From Psococerastis gibbosa (Eukaryota; Arthropoda; Insecta; Psocodea; Psocidae), in assembly GCA_963971405.1 (NCBI GenBank), contig OZ020485.1, forward strand, positions 43,955,469 through 44,019,468: a DNA stretch of 64,000 bases. Direction: 5' to 3'. Below are positions 19,998-64,000 of this stretch, piece by piece; within the stretch, counting starts at the first letter, position 1, and every line of letters begins with the position of its first letter. The position numbers were made by a program, and so were the translations under genes. The notes under the pieces were generated by a model. The model made no database searches. It saw only the letters and a program-made list of their open reading frames with translations, and was not told where the DNA came from.

Positions 19998-20250
19998 GGG
20001 GGTAGTAGTAGTATGGTTGGACACAGTCCCAGGCCACGGTGTGGGCCCATAGTACAAGGGACCTCCTGATTATAGTGGATTCCGAACCACTTGGGAAACA
20101 CAGTGAAGTCACACGATTAGTTCGGAGGTGACCAGGGCAAGTCCTACCATGTTTCCCTACCGGCACTGTGTACACTACCAAGTTATCTGCATCTTTGAAC
20201 CTGCTCTGGTCCGCTGGATTCAACTTGGTAAGGCGGCCGGCACTTCTAGG
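19998..20250. repeat. Dispersed repeat family G, copy 1
   Basis: Begins with GTAGTAGTAGTATGG and runs to ACTTGGTAAGGCGGCCGG. It is the reverse complement of the copies at 31119-31365, 46422-46700 and 63867-64000. Its sequence is strongly conserved between copies, including GTGGATTCCGAACCACTT and CCATGTTTCCCTACCGGCAC. The class is unknown; an open frame spans the copies on one strand. Confidence 0.6.
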
Positions 20251-30958: not shown

Positions 30959-31365
30959 TTTAATAATAATAATTTGTATTTTTTAGTACAATACAATTAC
31001 AATTTAATTACATTAGGGAAATAGGCCAATTAGGGGTATACGGGAAATTAATAATTCGTTAATTACCAAGATTAAATGACATTTGCGGCAGCCATGACAT
31101 TAAGTTACACTTCTATATGCAGCCGGCCGCCATACCAAGTTGAATCCAGCGGACCAGAGCAGGTTCAAAGCTGCAGATAAATTGGTCGTGTGCACAGTGC
31201 CGGTAGGGAAACATGGTAGGACATGTCCTGGTCACCTCCGAACTAATCGTGTGACTTGACTGTGTTTCCCAAGTGGTTCGGAATCCACTATAATCAGGAG
31301 GTCCACTGGAGTCCTATGGGCCCACACCGTGGCCTGGGACTGTGTCAAACCATACTACTACTACA
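30959..31365. repeat. Dispersed repeat family G, copy 2
   Basis: Starts AATAATAATAATTTGTATTTT and contains CAATACAATTACAATTTAATTACATT in pieces, then GCCGGCCGCCATACC through ATGGTAGGACATGTCC to CCATACTACTACTAC. The same order is found at 46145-46700. If read on the minus strand the ATT-rich edge would be a 3' tail, as in LINEs or SINEs; this is inference. Confidence 0.6.
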
Positions 31366-41175: not shown

Positions 41176-42180
41176 GGCGGGGTTTCTACCGACCTCTGAT
41201 TGCAGAATGCAAAGACATTGACGTAGTAGCAGACATTCAAGACTTAGGCGCGTATTCCACCGACCTCTCATTGCAGAATGCAAATGACAGTGACGAAAAT
41301 TTTTGTTTTACTCTATGCCATAGTTAAAATTGATCAATGATCATAGATAAACATAATAGTCTCCTTAGTAACTTTGTAAAACTTGCTGTCACTCATTGTT
41401 AAAATTAACTTTGTATAGTTTTACAAATAAAATAAAATTAAAAATTCACAACCGGTTTCGGCTCACGCCATCGTCAAGTGCTATTGAAAACGGATAAAAC
41501 AAAAGGTATGCAAGCTAAAACAAAATAAAACTCATTGTCAGGATAACACACAGCATCGCAAAAAGTAAACAATTTAAATTGAACAATTAAACATTAACCA
41601 ATGGAAGCGCCAACAAGGGGGAACTACTTAAAAAGGTTATGTCATTAAGTAACGATTTGTTTTTAGCCATAGCTTCCCTAATCTCAATGGTTTCTAAATT
41701 ATCAAGAATTTTCCCCTTGTTGGCTACATGTAAGATCTTAAAATTATCGAAATCACAGGCATGGTTGTGGGTGTTTATATGTTGGGCAAAGGCGGACTGA
41801 GTGTTGGGTTTTCCTACCCCCCGTCTATGCTCCGCTATTCTTTCTTTAAACCCTCTCCTAGTTTGTCCAATATATAAGCTACCACAATCGCACTTGACGA
41901 TGGCGTGAGCCGAAACCGGTTGTGAATTTTAAATTTAATTTTATTCGTAAAACTATACAAAGTTAATTTTAACAATGAGTGAATGATCATAGACTAAAAT
42001 CACAAACAAAATAAAATTAAAAAATCGCGTCATGGAATATGTTAAGTACAAACATTTTAAGAGATTTCTATAAATAGAAAAAGAAAAATTTCCGTCACTG
42101 TCATTTGCATTCTGCAATGAGAGGTCGGTGGAAACTCCGCCTAAGTCTTGAATGTCTGCTACCACGTCAATGTCTCTGCA
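41176..42180. mobile_element. Family C MITE split by a Penelope-like insertion
   Basis: The left half (41176-41347) begins GGCGGGGTTTCTACCGACC after TTA and has two arm copies in series. The right half (41982-42180) carries the mirrored arm GAGGTCGGTGGAAACTCCGCC and continues to CTACCACGTCAATGTC before the outer arm is lost. Removing 41348-41981 plus one 12-bp repeat restores the contiguous order seen at 36224-36547. Confidence 0.65.
41348..41981 (-). mobile_element. Penelope-like element fragment with GIY-YIG endonuclease
   Basis: On the minus strand (about 41904 to 41600) one frame reads CDCGSLYIGQTRRGFKERI, AEHRRGVGKP, HINTHNHACDFDNFKIL and LDNLETIEIREAMAK. GSLYIG and the Arg/Glu/His-containing helix are the GIY-YIG signature, as at the C-terminus of Penelope-like reverse transcriptases. 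The reverse transcriptase itself is missing (5'-truncated). About 95 bp on each side form an inverted repeat containing a hammerhead-like core. The 12-bp sequence AATGATCATAGA flanks the insertion exactly (41336-41347 and 41982-41993). Confidence 0.75.
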
Positions 42181-43769: not shown

Positions 43770-44400
43770 CTGGTCTAACGCTGGAGTTTCCAACAGGCTT
43801 CACAGAAAGCTACTTTTATAGTATGTAATCCGGTCATTGTATAGAGTCTATCTCTGGATCCACCACTGGTCTAACGCTGGAGTTTCCAACAGGCTTCACA
43901 GAAAGCTACCTTTATACTATGTAATCTGGCGCCCATTCCATTGACCGGCTAGGGCTATTTCCAAAAACAGTGACGTGGTAGCCGACATTCAAGACTTAGG
44001 TTGCGTTTCCACCGACCTCGCATTGCAGAATGCAAATGACATTGACGGAAATTAGAATTTTTCTTTTTATAGAAATCTATTAAAATGTTTGTACTTAACA
44101 TATCCCATGACGCCATTTTTTAATTTTAGTTTGTTTCTTTGTGATTTTACTGTATGATCATTGATCAATTTTAACTATGGCATAGAGGAAAATAAACATT
44201 TCCGTCAATTCTGCAATGCGAGATCGGTGGAAACGCCACCTAAGTCTTTAATGTCTGCTACCACGTCACCGTTTTTGGAAATAGCCCTAGCCGGTCAATG
44301 GAATGGGCACCTAACGCTGGAGTTTCCAACAGGCTTCACAGAAAGCTACCTTTATACTATGTAATCCGGTCATTGTATAGAGTCTATCACTATAGTATAG
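43770..44400. repeat. Direct repeat of about 96 bp, three copies, with a family C MITE between copies 2 and 3
   Basis: CTAACGCTGGAGTTTCC, AACAGGCTTCACAGAAAGC and TATGTAATC occur at 43774, 43870 and 44312. Copies 1 and 3 continue into GGTCATTGTATAGAGTC. Copy 2 is cut off by the family C insertion at 43928. Confidence 0.6.
43928..44311. mobile_element. Composite family C MITE
   Basis: Outer ends GGCGCCCATTCC and GGAATGGGCACC with the same nested inner arms as 26168 and 50230. The flanking triplets (TCT and TAA) do not match, which fits its position at a junction between tandem repeat copies and suggests a later rearrangement. Confidence 0.65.
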
Positions 44401-44668: not shown

Positions 44669-47600
44669 TTACAGAAGTTTTATTTCAAATCTTTCCTCAG
44701 CTTTCCTTTCTTTCTGGCCCATAACAATTTTTTCCCGACCCTTTTCGACGAATTCGAAGAAGAGTTCAAAATTAAACACAACAACCATTTAAATATAGCA
44801 AATTAAAATCATCGTGAATTTTAAATACACTTACTCTCAGCTCAGTAATAGTCTTATCCCAATTCCGCTGAGCAATTCGAGGAACGACAGCGCGAATGAG
44901 CTTAGTGACTTTGTCGACGTTTTTCTTAAACATGGCAAGCACATCAGCCACACACACACGCTCTCCTGTCTCTCTCCAGCAGTCGTAGTCTGTTGCTAAG
45001 GCTATCGCAGCGTAGCACAGGCCTGCCTCTTTCGCCAAAACCACCTGCAACAAGTTATCATGATAAACAAAAAACAAAAACTTAAGAGTTTTAGAAAAAC
45101 TTGTTATAACCATAAAGATACATTAACTGGAGCGGCGGGAGCCATAATATGCCGAGGCACCCGTTAACCATAAGCCAACTATCAGAGATAAGTACCAACG
45201 CAAAAAATATCGAAGTCTTACACATTGCAGCATAGCAGAACGGATACCTGGACCCGGTCAAAAACTCTGTACTTAGCTTGTGCAGGCTACACTTATCACT
45301 GGGTTTCCCCGCCAAATTGCGTACTTGTGCAGGCTACACTAGCAGCCATATTGATAACGGTCTCCAACCACGGGATGGTTATAACTATAACCCGAATTAG
45401 TAAAACCCAAATAAACAAGTGGGTGTCTTAGGCGGGGATTCCACATACGTCAATAGTCAATAGTAAATATGGTATTGACGGAAATTTCAATTTTTCATTG
45501 ATACAATACATTGGCGGGGATTCCACCAACGTCAATAGTGATATTAAATGTTTTTTGACGTGGTAGCAGACATTTAAAGACTGTCTAAAAATGTCTGCTA
45601 CCACGTCAATTCGGGTTATAGATATAACAAGTTTTTCTAAAATTCTAAGTTTTTGTTTTTTTGTTTATTACAATGAAATACCACGAAGTCACGAGAATTG
45701 TAATTTTTTCTAATTCTCATGAGGTTGCAGAGAAATAATTTGTATTAACTTAGCCCATGTTGATGCTTATATTCACAATAAGCGCTTGTGTTAAAAGCAT
45801 AGAAACCTTGCAGGTTACAGAAAATTGTGGTTATAATTTTGTTAAAAAATGATAGGCGTACAGAACTAGTACGAGTACCTCTGGCACGGTCGTCATATTG
45901 ATGACGTCAGCTCCCCAAGTTCTAAAGACTAAGCTTTCAGCCTTGCTAGAGAACCGCGGTCCTTCAATTGTGACGCAGGTGCCAGTAGGCCGAACCTCCA
46001 AGTCCAACGATTTGGCTGTTTCTAATATAATTTGCCGCGTCTCCTCACAGAAAGCTGGCTCCATAGGCAAATGGCAGATCCCACGTCGAAATTCATCCGG
46101 CCCTCCGTACAATGTCTGCTCCCTTTTCGTGGTTCTGGAAGAAGTTTTAATAATAATAATTTGTATTTTTCTTCAAGTAGCCAGTAGGTATACAATTACA
46201 ATATAATTACATTTGGAAGGGGAGCCCAAAAGACAAGTTATCAAGTAATAACAAAAGAAAATGTACATACATTTCATATTGATGCATTATTTTACTCAGT
46301 TTGGTACAGGTAACTTTAGCTTCAACGGAACATGGTGAAAATTTAGAAAGTTAGCCGTAAAATACAAAATAATGGTATCAGTCATTGTTTTATCTTGATA
46401 GTTAGGCCTATTTGTTAGCCAGCCGCCATATCAAGTTGAATCCAGCGGACCAGAGCAGGTTCAAAGCTGCAGATAACTTGGTCGTGTGCACAGTGCCGGT
46501 AGGGAAACATGGTAGGACTTGTCCTGGTCACCTCCGAACTAATCGTGTGACTTCACTGTGTTTCCCAAGTGGTTCGGAATCCACTATAATCAGTAGGTCC
46601 ACTGTCCTATGGGCTGGCATAGGACAGTCAAGTCGGAGTCGCTCTATGGGCCCAAATATGAGGCCTAAGTCGTTATTAACCCCACGAACACTACTACTAC
46701 TAGACCTATTTGTTACAAGAGCGGGTAATAAAGTGTACCTGTCTATAAAAGAACTGAGTATTACTGCATCTCCAGGTTTAATTTCTTCTTTCAGTGATCC
46801 GCAGGCTGTGCTGACGATTAGATGAGTGCAGCCAACTTGGCGGAGGGCCCAAATATTGGCGCGGTAATTTACTTGCGAAGGAGAGATATCGTGAAGACGT
46901 CCGTGTCTTGCCAGAAGAACGCATGGAATTCCTTCAATCTTGCCCTCAATCAAAACATCTGAAGGCTTCCCAAAGGGCGTGTCAATGAGGCGCTCGACGC
47001 GATCGCTGACAATGTCTGGATCGTCTAACCCTGAGCCTCCAATGATTCCAACCTGAGATAAAGGCAATGCAAAATTGTAGAACTGAGCTGTTATGGCGCC
47101 CATTCCACATACGTCAATCGTCAATGAAAAATTGAAAAATGACGTAAATTGACGTGGTAGCAGAATTTTTAGTATGTCTTTAATGTCTGCTAAAACGTCA
47201 TTTTTCAATTTTTCATTGACGATTGACGTATGTGGAATGGGCGCCTAATCGAAAGGCATCCTAAGAGCACAGAGAAATCACGGCCCAGTTATCCCTATAT
47301 AATACATACTGTGTATACAGTATATAAGATATAATGTATATGCATATGCAACTTTACATAGGAAAATGCATTGTCAAAGAAGTTTGTACATGTGAAACAT
47401 AAATAAACTCAAACAGTTCCTAATAGTAAGCATACATCTATTAAAAATATTATATTTTCTCTAGTGAGTAGACAGTTTTGTTGAGGTACAGATCTTTGAC
47501 AGTTGTTTTAAAAGCTTGCCTGTTTAGGATCTTTGTTTGTAAATTTAGTTTACTATGAGGATGAGGAACGTACAAAATTGACACACCAAAATCAGATGCT

Positions 47601-56590: not shown

Positions 56591-57707
56591 TATACGACAT
56601 AGTGGGCAGCTGGACTTATATCGTTATTGATCTGTTAATAGTTGGTCCACAAGCAGAGTAATATAATCATTATATTATAATGCATTAAAATCTTTTGCAA
56701 GAATTTATTAATTTTTTAGTATACCCTTGGAGAGCTGCTTATTTTTTTTAAGGTGCAATGGAAGTGTGAAAATAAACCAATCTTGACGTGGTGTACTTAG
56801 GTAGCCTACTTATTCAACATTAACTTGAAAATAAGGTTGAAGTAAGTGTATTAAGGCTGCGGTATAGTAGCATCGCCATCATATTTGAGTTATAACTTTC
56901 TTAATTTAATAGTTAAAATTGTGAAATTTTTTAGGATAGTGTATAATAGAGTAGTCTAAGTGCCCAGTATATTGAAAACTAAAAATTAGGCCTAACTTAC
57001 CTAATATGGCCTATTTACCTTGAATTTTACCACTTTTTGCCACTTCTAGGCTTATAACAATATTATTTCAGCTCCTAAATTTCTAAAATTGGTAATGATT
57101 ATGGAAAATCATCTGGGCTATATGCCCAGTATATATGAATACGGTACAGTAGATCTAAATAGTACTTTTTCCATTTTTAGTCTGAATTTAGCCACTTTTT
57201 GACATTTTTGCCCCGTAGAATTTTTTATTTTGAAGATAGAGTATAAAAATTTTACCTGTAGATTCATTTAATCTTAAGAATTAATTTGCATTCATTTTTG
57301 TTAGTGAAAAAATATATATATATTGCGTAAAATGTCAATTACAAAACCATCCTACTAAACCCGCGAATATGCAAATAGCAACTTGAAATAAATACAGATG
57401 TTATAGTGTTAATACATCTTTTTGCTCTCAAATTTTCATATCAATAACTTAGAAACTTATTACGTAAAAAAATAAAATTAAAATAAGCCCGTGCATTCAG
57501 GCAAGAAAGGCATAACAAATGAATTGGGGTTGGTACCCTAATACGGTTCAGCGCATGGTTTCAGTACCTTCCCAAATTTTGAAGGTAGTGGTGTTTTTCT
57601 CTCGCCGGTGAATCTCGCTCGTATTTATTTTCGCTCGCGGAATAATTAAGTTATCAATAGGCTAAGGTATCTGTTTCTTTTGTGTATATTTGTGCATTGT
57701 GCTTATC

Positions 57708-60700
57708 ATGGGAAATAAACGAGATGCTTCGAGAAATTACTGGAGTAAAAACAGAAGGTATGTATTTCTTATCAGTTATTTCATTTTAATATATCTTGTC
57801 TGAATATGTAAAACTTAAAATAAGCCTTACGTTTGTTGGTATCACGACTTCACGTACCTAGGGCTAGGTAATAATCCTAGGTAACATAGGCTACATAGCT
57901 ATAGGTATTTCTTTGTAAACTATGTAAAATAAGTATACGAGGATGCGCACCTGTAAATGTTAATTATGAGTAGGCTAAAAGTGCAGCAATGGGTTACTTG
58001 TGGAATAAAAAAGGTCTTCGTATTAGAATAAATGAATAAAATAATTAAAACAATTCCTACACTAGGTACATAAGACGAGATGGTGGGAACGGGCTGCAAT
58101 TAGTTATTTCATAATTTTTATTATATGTCATTACGGTTCTTCGAGTGGAAAAAATGAGAACCTTATCTGTTGCAGTTCTCCGATTTGGGAATTCTTATAT
58201 CTCCATCATAATCAGTGACAATGAGATAGTAGAAATCAATATGAAAAATTAAATTAAATTTAAGTCAAGAATCTGTCAAATGTAGTTCATGAGGAAGCAG
58301 TAGATGAGCTGATGGGAGTGGTTGATCTGAATGTGTACTTAGGCCTATGTATAGAAGATTCCAGCCTTAAAAGTCTTAGATTTATATACATTCCTTATAC
58401 AACATATTTCCTGAAACGTGAAGAATTATGAACCCCGGTCTTAGAAGTTACTGTCAACAGTGTCAATATTATACTGTAGATACCATTGTATTACTATGAA
58501 CAGCTGTATTTATAGCCTACATCTTACTATTCCAGGAAAGGTGGACGAGGGAAATTCATTCGATTACCACCAAGCAGTACCGAAATATCTCTGGAGCCAG
58601 AAACAACAATAAACGTTGATACACCCATTGTTTGGCCCATTGATCAGAGTACGCCCATCAGCACTTGGTGTACCGAAGGGGTACACGAAGATTCCACTTC
58701 AACAGTCAATAATATTCCTCCTTATACCCATAGTGACGGTGAGTGTACCTTTCAATTATTTAGGGCCATGGTATTATATATAGTATGTATTCAACCGCGA
58801 GTAGGGATATAATAACAATGTTAGCAAGTTGCAAGTAATTCCTCTGTCTCCCTGCGTCCCCTGACGAAAATATTCAGGTTATAGGCCATAATTAATTATA
58901 ATTGTTGTGTTTATCATTCGTTTTCATTCAGGGCCTTCTCACATAAAGTCCTTTTCGTAAGTTTTGCCGTAGTTAGGGGCGCCGGCCCGACCCTTCCATG
59001 CTTCCATGCTTCCAGGCCTCGTGCTTTGCGTTACGTTGTCCATCAAGAAACACACTAGACCTGATTATTGAAATACTTTTCTATTTGACCGAAGTCATAT
59101 TCAAAATTAAATTTATTATCGAGATCTCCTCTCCATATTGCCTTTCAAACCCCCGCGATGGTGTCAAGACGCGGGGGTGATTGGGAACTAAGGTGATGCC
59201 CCCTCCTCTAATTTAAAAAGCTGCGCACGCCCTTGATCGCGCCCATTCTATATAAATGTGGTCAGAAAAAAACTAAAAAACGTAGAAGAGCGTTTCCTCT
59301 AGAACGAGTGCCACAGCTTTCTTCGTAGAGAAGAGCAGCCTCAAAAGATCTCAACACATTTTTAATTCTAGGTACCATATAGTGGGGTTTTACTTTGACT
59401 TGTTTTGGCAGCGAGAAACATTAGAGATTCTACAGATTAAGACATATTTAATAGAACTGTAAACAGTGGAAATGTTTTATTGATATCTCCCCTATTACAT
59501 ACAGGCCTACTCGAATATTCGATCCAATAAATATTGGTGGACTAAAAATGCGAAAGTGCAAGGTCTAAATTCAGAATCAAATCGTATAGGCTATTCAATA
59601 TAAATATTTCTTGGATCGAATTTTCATTCGAGGATGTAATCATGGCCTGTATGTTCGAGATAGTCTGATTTTCTGTATGCAAAATACTTCAGATTTTACT
59701 TATTCAATATACATGTACAGTAGGTACAAAATGGAGGGATTTTACTCTTTTATTTTAAATTGCAAGTATAGAATATTCCAAAAAATTCAATATAAATTCA
59801 ATGTTTAAAACCAAATATTAGATTCTACAAACCTTGACTAATTCCTATAAATGGTAGATTTTTCTGAGTTCAGGTGTTAATTTTTTGTCAAGTTCGTTTT
59901 TTTCGGCCTGACTGCGGCATGTTGTTTATCTTCTAGGGCAACCTACAAACTACTTAGTTCCATTTTGTGAATGCGGTGCAATGGTATAGATTGTGAATGT
60001 TGAATGCGACAGGTCGTTTTTAATTGTAATAAAATTCTCCCCCCCCCCCCGGTCTCCAGTGTATAGCCTAGGATGTGTATTGGTTTCTTATACTTGGAAC
60101 TTGAATACATAGGTTCCAATTTTAGGCTAAATTCTCCCGCCCCCTCTGAGAAAAATGCCTAAATCCGCGCCTGGTTGGTATCACCATTCTGAACAGGTTC
60201 AGCAATTTGGCCGTTATGCATACATAACTAGGTCGCAGAGCGGGTCAGAACTTTTAAAAAAAATGCAGGAGATAAAAAACAACGTTATTTTTTATTATTT
60301 AAATGTCGAAAACAAAAGTTGCCTTTTTACTTCTTTTGTTTTACTGAACTTGAATAGTATAGTGTATATAATGTATTTCATACACATTAAAAAAAATTAA
60401 ATAATGAAAAGTCATATAGTTTGCAAGGTAGACTTCAGAAGTGAATGAGCCATCTATCAAAATCTTGGGGTCCTAAAGCCCTCCCCCCAGAAATTTTGGG
60501 AATTTACGCCGATGACATGCACTGTAACGTATACAGTAGGAAAAGGGAACTCACATCCTAACGCATGGTGCCCCTAATTTAGTTATACACAGTTACAGCA
60601 TGTACTGGATTTAAAAATAAAAGTAGTGGCTTGCCAACATGTTAAAACCATTGGCGTAAATTCCCAAAATTTCTGGGGGGGGGGGGGCTTTAGGACCCCA

Positions 60701-63693
60701 AGATTTTGATTCATTACTCATTAACTTCTGAAGTCTGCCTAGCAAATTATATTACTTTTTATTATTTAATTTTTTTTTTTTTTTATGAAATACATTACAC
60801 ACAAAACTATTCAAGTGCAGTAAAACAATAAATGGGCCCAAATTAGTGAACTTTTGCTCATGTTTTACCCTGGAAGAAGGGGGGCCAGGGCAAGGACGGC
60901 TATAGGGGGTAGGGGCCCCCCAAAAACTTAGTAAATCTATTGTAAATTAATCTATAACGCTGTAATTTAATCGATCCTACATATGTTTTTCCTATTTTGA
61001 CCCACAACTACCCCCCCCCCCCCACCAATGGGCTGGATCCGTCCCTGGGCCCGAGAAGAAAAATCGATAAATAGGCCCAAATTAGTGCGGTTTTACGCAT
61101 TTTAAAAGCATCACAGTTGAGATTTTACCGACGAATAAATCTACCACTGAGGGGGGCCCGGGGGTCTCCCCCGTAGAAAAAGCAATTTGAGTAATATATT
61201 TTTTGTGAAAGTACTTGTAACTTGGTCAATATGAAGATTTTTTTATGATGTCTTTCATGTCAAATAAGCATACCAAGAATTAATTTCCCTTTCGATATTG
61301 TGGATACTATGCCTTTCGCCTCCATAGCGTCTATGTCACCCCCCCCCCCCCAAGGACCCCCTATTTATGCCAATGGTTAAAAAGTCATTAGTACGAACAA
61401 TGTGTATGATAGTTATACCTCATAATTTTATTTTATTTCAGGGAAGAGGCGAATATATCTCGTCGACGTACATTACCTATTTCGCCAACTCCAGGAAACA
61501 TATTCCCACGGTTCCTGCGACTGTTCTTTTCGGGACATGGTAATTATAAAAGAGAGTAAAAGGGGTCTATTGAACGCTTGGACCTTCAGGTGTAATATGT
61601 GTAAATTGGAACAAACAGTTAAGTCAGAAAAGACGGAAGGGTATAATTCAAGCAACTTCAAGGTGGCCAATGCTGCGATTGGTGCAGGAATTCATTTTAC
61701 GCAAGCCATGGATTTTCTTTCTGGCATGGACATCACGCCGTTAAGTATTAATACCTTTCAAAAAGGTTATGAAGTGGTTTCTAGGCAGTTAATGAAGACC
61801 ACCGAGGAAAGTCTGGAACTGGCAGCAGGCGAAGAATGGCGTCTAGCAGAAAAGGAAGGCTGCGTCGACGATGATGGTGTCGCAAATGTAACTGTGGAAG
61901 TGGATGGAGCTTGGTGTTCTCGTTCCTACCAGGGACACTACAAGTCGCTTGCAGGTTTTGCTTGCATAATAGGTGAAAGAACAGGAAAGGTTTTAGACTA
62001 CGGGGTAAAAAATCGATACTGTGTGCTTTGTGAGAGGGCAGAGAAAAAACGTCTCAAACTAGGCCAAGAAGTGTCACCGAAATCACATATATGTTATAAA
62101 AATTGGTCTTTACCCCCAAATGGAATGGAGGCAGCCATACTGGCCGAGTGTTTCACAAGAAGTGTCGAAAAATACAAGCTCCGGTATGTGAAGTTCATAG
62201 GAGATGGTGATTCCTCCACCTATAAGACAGTCCTAGATGCCGAGCCATATGGGCCTTCCATAATTCCAAAAAAACTGGAATGCGTTATACACATAAGCCG
62301 GGTATTTTATAGAAAGTTACGAGAGTTAGGGAAAAAGAAACAACATCCAAAGGAGCTCCGTGACTTCATAAAAAGTAAAAAATTCATCAAAGAGTTGAGG
62401 CAAAAAATAAGTGAGGCGTCTTCCTATTTCCGAGAAGACGACAGTAAATCAGATGACGCAAAATCTATAAATTTGCAAAGATGCTTATTAAGTGTTCTTC
62501 GCCACTGTTTGGGCAATCATATGTTATGCAGTGCTGCAGTCTCATGTGAATGTGATGGAGGCGATTGGAACTCCCTATGGACCACCAAGGCAGGGGTAAT
62601 ATTTTTTGCAGAAATATCCACAGCATTTGCCAGGGTAGTAACAAATGCTGCTTCCTTGTTAGAAAATAAAACTACGAATAAAGCGGAATCATTCAACAGC
62701 ATTTTAAACAGATACAACCTGGCAAAAAGGGTGATGAATTACCAGCGCAATGGGTATAATGTTCGAGCTGCAGCTGCCATAATTCAGAAAAATAGTCGTG
62801 GACATTTCATTGGCGAGTCAACTCTTGCTCTCACTGGCCGTAGCCCCAGCAGTGCTATAAAAATAAATGAACGCCGTAAACTGAAAAAACGCAAAGCCCG
62901 AACTAATGTGTTGGACGAGCCAACTTCAAAGCGACGTCGGTTATTTTTTTATAAAAATGACCAATATGGGGCACCAAAGGAGGACTTGGCCAGTCGCGGA
63001 TTTCCTCTACTCACAAAGGAAGACATGCTGAAGAGCATAGAAAATAATGCTGTGGGGTTTCAGCAATTGGAAATTAGGACTAGGCTACAAGCGCTGATAC
63101 CAGAGTGGCACTGCGAGCGAAAGAAAAGGCTGACTGCTAGCAACTTTGGACCTGTTATATGTGCGACAAAGCGAAAAAACATGAACAAGTTCGTACAATC
63201 AATACATAAGGGTGCTCCATCTACAGCGGCCATTACATGGGGAAGGGACAATGAAGAGGTGGCTAGACTCGCGTATGAGTATGCGACTGGCAGCAAAGTT
63301 CAGAGGTCTGGATTAGTTGTAAGGTCAGACTATCCTTTCCTCGCTGCTTCGCCCGACGGTGTCATAGGTGACAACATGCTATTGGAGATAAAGTGCCCTT
63401 ATTCGGCGATAGGAATCAGCACACCAGAAGAGGCAATTACTTCGGGGAAACTGAAGTATTTGAAAATCTCCGATGAAGGCCTCATTTTCAACAAGAAAGA
63501 TAGATACTATCATCAAGTCCAGGGGCAGCTATTTATGACCAAAAAAAAAACTTGCCACTTTTTCATTTGGACCCCAATGTGGACACTGTGCTTACAGGTG
63601 GATAGCGACGCACAATGGCGAAAGAACATCCCAAAACTACAATCATTTTATTTCGACCACTACTTACCATCAATCTGTCAACCTATATTCTAA
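57708..63693 (+). CDS. Mutator-like DDE transposase fused to YqaJ-type nuclease, three exons
   Basis: Exons 57708-57757, 58536-58738 and 61442-63693 have canonical junctions (AAG|GTATGT, CCAG|GAA, GACG|GTGAGT, TTTCAG|GG) and phases that agree, giving 834 residues without a break. An N-terminal Cys set (CDC near 110, CNMC near 135-138) may bind zinc. The Mutator-like domain has the DDE candidates D239 (VEVDGAW), D339 (FIGDGDSS) and E500 (NKAESFN), plus CVLC..HIC (278-302) and ECVIH. A basic stretch (562-586) could be a nuclear signal. The C-terminal YqaJ domain (about 635-820) shows RLTASNFG, WGRDNEE, SPDG (D723), LLEIK (E733, K735) and HQVQGQ (776-780), the complete PD-(D/E)XK set. Proteins with this domain pair occur in many invertebrates and come from DNA transposons. 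No terminal repeats were found, so mobile or domesticated status is undecided. Confidence 0.9.
58739..60648. other. Intron 2 of the transposase-nuclease gene, left part
   Basis: Non-coding. 58970-59235 carries GGGGCGCCGGCCCG and GCGCACGCCCTTGA blocks that look like decayed G/C MITE ends. 60290-60510 is an inverted partial copy of the hAT-type element at 60649 (GTAGACTTCAGAAG, ATCTTGGGGTCCTAAAGCCC, AATTTTGGGAATTTACGCC). Confidence 0.45.
60649..61375. mobile_element. hAT-type G/C-tract element in intron 2 of the transposase-nuclease gene
   Basis: Ends CATTGGCGTAAATTCCC and CTATTTATGCCAATG. Flanks GTTAAAAC (60641-60648) and GTTAAAAA (61376-61383) agree at 7 of 8 positions. Inside, 60890-61050 has its own facing ends (CCAGGGCAAGGACGG and CTGGATCCGTCCCTGG), so a second MITE is probably nested. 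It ends about 65 bases before exon 3, leaving the acceptor intact. Confidence 0.65.
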
Positions 63694-63866
63694 ACTGTAC
63701 CAAGTAGCAACTACGGTCATATCTTTTAAGAAAAAAACAGTCACTTGCAGGACAGCAAATCTAGAAGGAAGGTGTTAAAATATTTTACTGAGAGAAATTC
63801 ATAACCTCTGTGGAGGAGTGCTGTGTTAACTTATACAAAACTGTGAGTAATTTGACATGTGGTTTA
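63694..63866. other. Downstream of the transposase-nuclease gene
   Basis: AT-rich; no AATAAA directly visible, and no sequence matching the inverse of the region upstream of 57708. Confidence 0.4.
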
Positions 63867-64000
63867 GCCGGCCGCCATACCAAGTTGAATCCAGCGGACC
63901 AATAGCAGGTTCAAAGCTGCAGATAACTTGGTCGTGTGCACAGTGCCGGTAGGGAAACATGGTAGGACTTGTCCTGGTCACCTCCGAACTAATCGTGTGA
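63867..64000. repeat. Dispersed repeat family G, copy 4, cut by the window edge
   Basis: GCCGGCCGCCATACCAAG, then GAATCCAGCGGACC, CAGTGCCGGTAGGG and AACTAATCGTGTGA match copies 2 and 3 almost base for base, with small indels. Confidence 0.65.

Follow-up and report, generated by a model that had tools for sequence, protein, structure and literature searches.

An intron-bearing open frame lies in the right part of the 64,000-nucleotide stretch of DNA analysed here (the window, which is part of contig C2 of the 409-Mb host genome), and it appeared to encode a DDE transposase joined to a YqaJ nuclease. The locus raised the question of what kind of element or gene this is, and of what role an exonuclease fused to a transposase could have. 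Judging from its ends, target sites and encoded domains, the locus is very probably a DNA transposon that looks autonomous and was probably mobile recently, belonging to the KolobokE lineage of the Kolobok superfamily, with one predicted spliced gene for a DDE transposase joined to a YqaJ nuclease. The coordinates of the features are listed in Table 1.

Table 1. Parts of the transposon and of its predicted transposase-nuclease gene, in window positions
Feature	Positions	Strand	Remarks
Left target-site duplication TTAA	56851..56854	.	Partner TTAA at window-equivalent 68688-68691, outside the window
Probable KolobokE transposon, part inside the window	56855..64000	+	Boundaries set by the limits of homology among the copies
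Left terminal inverted repeat GGCTGCGGTATAGTA, 15 bp	56855..56869	+	Right end has the same 15 bp in reverse complement
Exon 1 of the transposase-nuclease gene (predicted)	57708..57757	+	ATG at 57708; ATG and donor also in older copy L050
Intron 1	57758..58535	+	
Exon 2	58536..58738	+	L050 has gaps of 39 and 6 bp here, both in frame
Intron 2	58739..61441	+	Nested inverted repeat inside
Exon 3	61442..63693	+	Encodes the DDE transposase and YqaJ nuclease domains with the linker between them; stop codon included
PF20700 "Mutator-like transposase" match	61459..62553	+	Exon-3 protein residues 6-370; includes D239, D339, the CxxH motif and the residues of both putative fingers; E500 lies beyond the match
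PF09588 YqaJ domain	63103..63546	+	Exon-3 protein residues 554-701; E689, D723, E733, K735 and Gln motif 776-780

A DNA search of the host genome with the final 8 kb of the window found 15 near-identical copies. The whole element was 11,833 bp long, with its right end at window-equivalent position 68687 (G000:C2:44024155), 4.7 kb past the window, and its ends, GGCTGCGGTATAGTA...TACTATACCGCAGCC, carried inverted repeats of 15 bp. On the left, TTAA was followed by GGCTGCGGTATAGTAGC in 15 of 15 copies; on the right, TACTATACCGCAGCC was followed by TTAA in 14 of the 15 and by TAAA in the remaining one (L012), and the right tip of the element had the same sequence in every copy. The 25-base pattern of the left end occurred in the genome 15 times exactly and six times with one mismatch, while the reversed control gave no occurrence. 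One insertion (L017) was located in a dispersed repeat, element-free copies of which were present at 43928-44312 of the window and at 506-892 of L022. Both of them had a single 4-bp TTTA at the insertion point. Since these two empty copies read TTTA and are relatives of each other, the comparison identifies one 4-bp target, the exact word aside, and it is consistent with the duplication of a single 4-bp target whose word was one base off TTAA. The copies showed, at the level of their sequences, an element that spread recently, as a unit, into TTAA. The stretch behind the gene, at 63864-64000, matched three other places in the window (46415-46550, 31121-31254 and 20109-20241) with 95-97% identity over 134-137 bp, and the right side of the transposon thus carries a dispersed repeat.

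The copies of about 99% identity comprised 15 with both ends and one represented by a left end only (398 bp). Thirteen were uninterrupted, each about 11.84-11.86 kb long, and two further copies held nested insertions. From the left end to the window edge (7.15 kb), the number of substitutions between any two uninterrupted copies was 0-13 (median 8), with indels outside the count; when the window copy was compared with two others over its right 4.7 kb, 0 and 3 mismatches, plus gaps, were counted. In all 13, the sequences of exons 1 and 2 were unchanged, each of the four splice signals was present, and exon 3 was open over 749 codons. Such a set of near-identical uninterrupted copies with open frames suggests recent activity. 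Only four of the 23 variable sites among the 13 young copies were in exons, and these substitutions are therefore uninformative on selection. Older copies on contigs C19 and C20 (about 87-98% identical) were fragmented. Regarding the two nested insertions, copy L023/L024 (C14) was split in intron 2 by a later insertion of about 3.8 kb, the printed end of which resembled a hAT-type transposase by eye, and copy L022 (C2) was split near the end of exon 3 by a later insertion of about 20.8 kb.

The three predicted exons gave a frame of 834 residues with the stop codon at 63691-63693, and both junctions followed the GT-AG rule (GTATGT..TTCCAG for the first intron and GTGAGT..TTTCAG for the second). 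Seven more open GT-AG combinations, of 832-844 aa, could be assembled; the 834-aa combination was picked because its donor GTGAGT was the best among them. The three-exon frame of 834 codons with correct junctions, as given in the original prediction, was borne out by these junctions and by conceptual translation, and since the open exon 3 and the junctions were identical in the 13 uninterrupted copies, the frame is not a product of chance. In L050, an older copy that lies on contig C14 in pieces of 70-96% identity, the start codon and the donor and acceptor of each intron were preserved, and the gaps of 39 and 6 bp in its exon 2 were each a multiple of three. In exon 3 of this copy, where 716 of 2,252 positions were alignable, the substitutions at codon positions 1, 2 and 3 numbered 15, 14 and 36, and single-base gaps marked it as a decayed copy. 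The corresponding numbers for exons 1 and 2 together were 10, 5 and 6, with the third-position excess absent, so that the support for these two exons comes from their splice sites and from gaps that preserve the frame. Intron 2 contained an inverted repeat of 126 bp with arms at 60363-60488 and 60678-60803 that were 87% complementary, and a piece related to this repeat (60363-60803) was found near C20:4013208.

A Pfam search matched both halves of the predicted fusion. PF20700 was matched with an E value of 5.9e-76 and 256 bits (cut-off 26.5) over residues 89-453 of the 832-residue splice version, and PF09588 (YqaJ) with 4.4e-20 and 73 bits (cut-off 22) over residues 637-784 in the same numbering. 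The candidate DDE residues D239 (VEVDGAW), D339 (IGDGDSS) and E500 (NKAESFN) were present exactly at the positions predicted for the 834-aa frame. A CxxH motif, C365VIH368, was located between D339 and E500 and was common to a sister family described below. A putative zinc finger (H439, H444, C447 and C453) was found between this motif and the last E, and a putative second finger of the CCHC type (C278, C281, H300 and C302), also present in the sister family, followed the first catalytic D; the finger residues were assigned by inspection of the window protein aligned with three members of this one family. Because a single-sequence AlphaFold model of the exon-3 protein reached a mean pLDDT of only 33.4, the DDE triad rests on the sequence alignment. 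No Pfam match to a THAP domain was found in the transposase-nuclease protein at E values up to 10.

The nuclease half contained a predicted PD-(D/E)xK site of the kind with a helical Glu, formed by E689, D723 (SPDG), and E733 and K735 (LEIKC), together with the Gln motif QVQGQ at 776-780, so that the full YqaJ site named in the original prediction was found in place. A phmmer search of the exon-3 protein against the PDB returned five exonuclease sequences with E values from 1.6e-7 to 1.1e-6, and lambda exonuclease (PDB 1avq) was matched at 1.7e-7 with 63 residues aligned. In this alignment, E689, D723, E733 and K735 corresponded to lambda exonuclease residues which we take to be its metal site; the metal-site residues of the lambda exonuclease/YqaJ family (PF09588, 1avq) are kept in the aligned region. 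Lambda exonuclease is a free enzyme, whereas the YqaJ domain here forms the C-terminal part of a transposase. Lambda exonuclease also works paired with an annealing protein; no such partner was seen here, the 4.7 kb to the right of the gene having no ORF longer than 108 aa.

The PF20700 match (E 5.9e-76) carries the Pfam name "Mutator-like transposase", and this name would imply a Mutator-like (MULE/MuDR) element. The usual target-site duplication of MULEs is 8-11 bp, and the 4-bp TTAA found here is not of MULE-like length. A C/DxxH motif does agree with a Mutator origin, being common to MuDR, hAT, P, Dada and Kolobok (Kojima and Bao 2022, PMC9587614), and hAT, Kolobok, P and MuDR jointly have duplications of 4-10 bp (PMC3706591); however, a zinc finger located after the second and before the third catalytic residue, as in this protein, is reported missing in MuDR, P and hAT (PMC9587614). 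Membership in Mutator/MuDR, which we regard as highly improbable, is contradicted by the TTAA duplications and this finger. The fusion of a DDE transposase and a YqaJ domain in a gene with introns stood as originally predicted, but the designation "Mutator-type" had to be dropped in view of the TTAA duplication, the RR/YY ends and the finger between CxxH and E. An intron-bearing open frame could also belong to a host gene domesticated from a transposase-nuclease fusion. The gene is nevertheless part of an 11.8-kb repeat that has transposon ends and occurs as 15 near-identical copies dispersed in the genome; domestication of the window copy is contradicted by the terminal repeats and the copy number, and is hardly credible.

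The KolobokE assignment draws on traits described in PMC9587614. Kolobok elements have TTAA duplications, RR/YY ends and a C/DxxH motif, with a zinc finger between C/DxxH and the last E in almost all lineages except Kolobok1; a second CCHC finger after the first catalytic D occurs in KolobokE, KolobokP, KolobokD and Kolobok5, and KolobokE has a lambda-exonuclease-like domain downstream of the transposase. The TTAA, the C/DxxH motif, the fingers and the lambda-exonuclease-like domain published for KolobokE were all matched here, and the termini followed the RR...YY pattern, with GG...CC in the window family and GA...TC in two sister-family copies. Filed by these sequence features, the window family is probably a new member of the named KolobokE type, and apparently a young one. 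Kolobok transposases "usually" have a THAP domain (PMC6004289), and since the wording is only "usually", the domain was not treated as defining; the missing match nevertheless speaks against the assignment. The Xenopus Kolobok families of the same paper, with full-length elements of 6.8-13.9 kb, likewise have TTAA targets, short inverted repeats, and a DDE domain with an H2CH finger. In those families THAP is usual and a word beginning with "nuclease" does not occur in the text of the paper, whereas here the nuclease is present and a THAP match is absent. ISL2EU elements (PHIS/Harbinger-like superfamily; PMC4482050, PMC9179366) are animal DNA transposons that likewise carry a YqaJ exonuclease, but with a separate YqaJ ORF, a Harbinger-type DDE transposase and an AT duplication; the single fused ORF, PF20700 and TTAA ruled out membership in this group. 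No relatives were found in the viral contig collection or in the bacterial/archaeal contig collection.

The pairing of the two domains recurred in the host genome. There were at least 107 PF20700 matches, and 44 of the 45 strongest (E up to 9.3e-72) were followed by YqaJ within 2.5 kb on the same strand; only some of the 150 PF09588 matches entered this count, the short stand-alone ORF classes being excluded beforehand, which can only lower it. Many of the strongest matches belonged to a second family of the same architecture, with proteins of about 875 residues that were 35% identical to the exon-3 protein. According to the sequence alignment, this family retains both D residues, the CxxH motif, both fingers, the E and the nuclease residues, and the two copies examined were bounded by TTAA and had the ends GAGTG...CACTC. 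When one member of each family was compared, the identities were 62/148 in the YqaJ domain, 90/257 in the DDE core, 44/143 in the N-terminal segment, 34/125 in the linker and 20/50 in the C-terminal segment, making the nuclease domain the most conserved of the five. Conservation of YqaJ at least as strong as that of the DDE core argues, in this single between-family comparison, that selection maintains the nuclease together with the transposase. At least four further classes of repeated YqaJ ORFs, of 191-260 residues, were present (L046, 260 aa; L047, 215 aa; L048, 253 aa; L049, 191 aa). In the one member considered per class, the L046 ORF adjoined a DDE_Tnp_4 transposase and the L047 ORF adjoined a SAP-domain ORF, and no transposase was found beside L047, L048 or L049 among the ORFs scanned. 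The L046 pair of DDE_Tnp_4 and YqaJ resembles the ISL2EU arrangement (PMC4482050).

The original prediction had remarked that the mechanism of such fusions is not established, and our search agreed with this: no paper testing or establishing the role of a transposase-fused exonuclease was found, nor any pairing Kolobok with YqaJ by name or naming PF20700, in a literature where subscription journals were thinly covered. From family knowledge, the transposase would bind the short inverted repeats, excise the element and join it into TTAA, with the DDE domain cutting and joining the DNA. The original prediction had proposed that a protein able both to cut DNA and to resect ends could couple transposition to recombination-like repair or copying, which is a possibility. 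The tethered nuclease would degrade the 5' strands at the excision breaks and expose 3' single strands, and the donor gap would then be copied from the sister or homologue, which would restore a full-length donor copy. The reading that we favour, tentatively, with somewhat less than an even chance and less firmly than the transposase part, is that resection of the excision breaks would steer repair toward copying from a template. The 15 two-ended copies against the one 398-bp left end, at about 99% identity, speak weakly for this reading. The small number of internally deleted copies may, however, reflect youth, and the genome search scores the best candidates only; the fragmented older copies on C19 and C20 and the missing annealing partner were counted against templated repair as the explanation. 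A stronger proposal, in which the resected donor break forces templated gap repair and the donor copy stays, so that the exonuclease turns cut-and-paste into self-copying, seems distinctly unlikely. If it were true, the copies through which the family spreads would be full-length (11.8 kb), and internally deleted derivatives would be few.

The main rival to templated repair holds that the nuclease trims the 5' (non-transferred) strand ends of the transposon itself, or flaps, at excision or integration. Fusion to the transposase would place the nuclease at the element ends, and the identity of the right tip in all 15 copies agrees with this, but lambda-type exonucleases are processive on long duplexes, beyond what trimming would need. 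KolobokD and some Dada elements have 3'-5' exonucleases, and a role in 3'-end degradation has been suggested for the DEDDh nuclease of KolobokD (PMC9587614), as has 3'-end processing for Dada (PMC3706591). On the other side, certain Kolobok lineages encode the transposase alone (PMC9587614), and the chemistry can therefore do without an enzyme of this kind to trim the ends. We consider trimming doubtful, though a serious contender. The YqaJ domain could also be a passenger that lacks nuclease activity and serves only a structural purpose or DNA binding. Transposons commonly capture domains, and the nuclease activity is so far predicted from sequence; nevertheless, both KolobokE families retain the residues aligned with the lambda metal site (E, D, E and K), and the domain is conserved between them at least as well as the DDE core, which makes a passenger quite improbable. 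Whichever role applies, the pairing of a transposase with an exonuclease recurs in KolobokE, KolobokD, some Dada elements and ISL2EU (PMC9587614, PMC3706591, PMC4482050). With its ends, duplications and gene defined and 13 uninterrupted near-identical open copies, the window family is a convenient object for experiments on this partnership.

Two other places in the window gave matches on the minus strand. A 113-aa ORF at 41587-41928 had a weak GIY-YIG match (E 0.0027, under the Pfam cut-off) and possibly belongs to a retroelement. At 44772-47244, three ORF pieces matched PNP_UDP_1, the third of them (E 0.001) under the Pfam cut-off; these pieces resembled exons of a host gene for a purine-nucleoside or methylthioadenosine phosphorylase, the finer name being given by eye.
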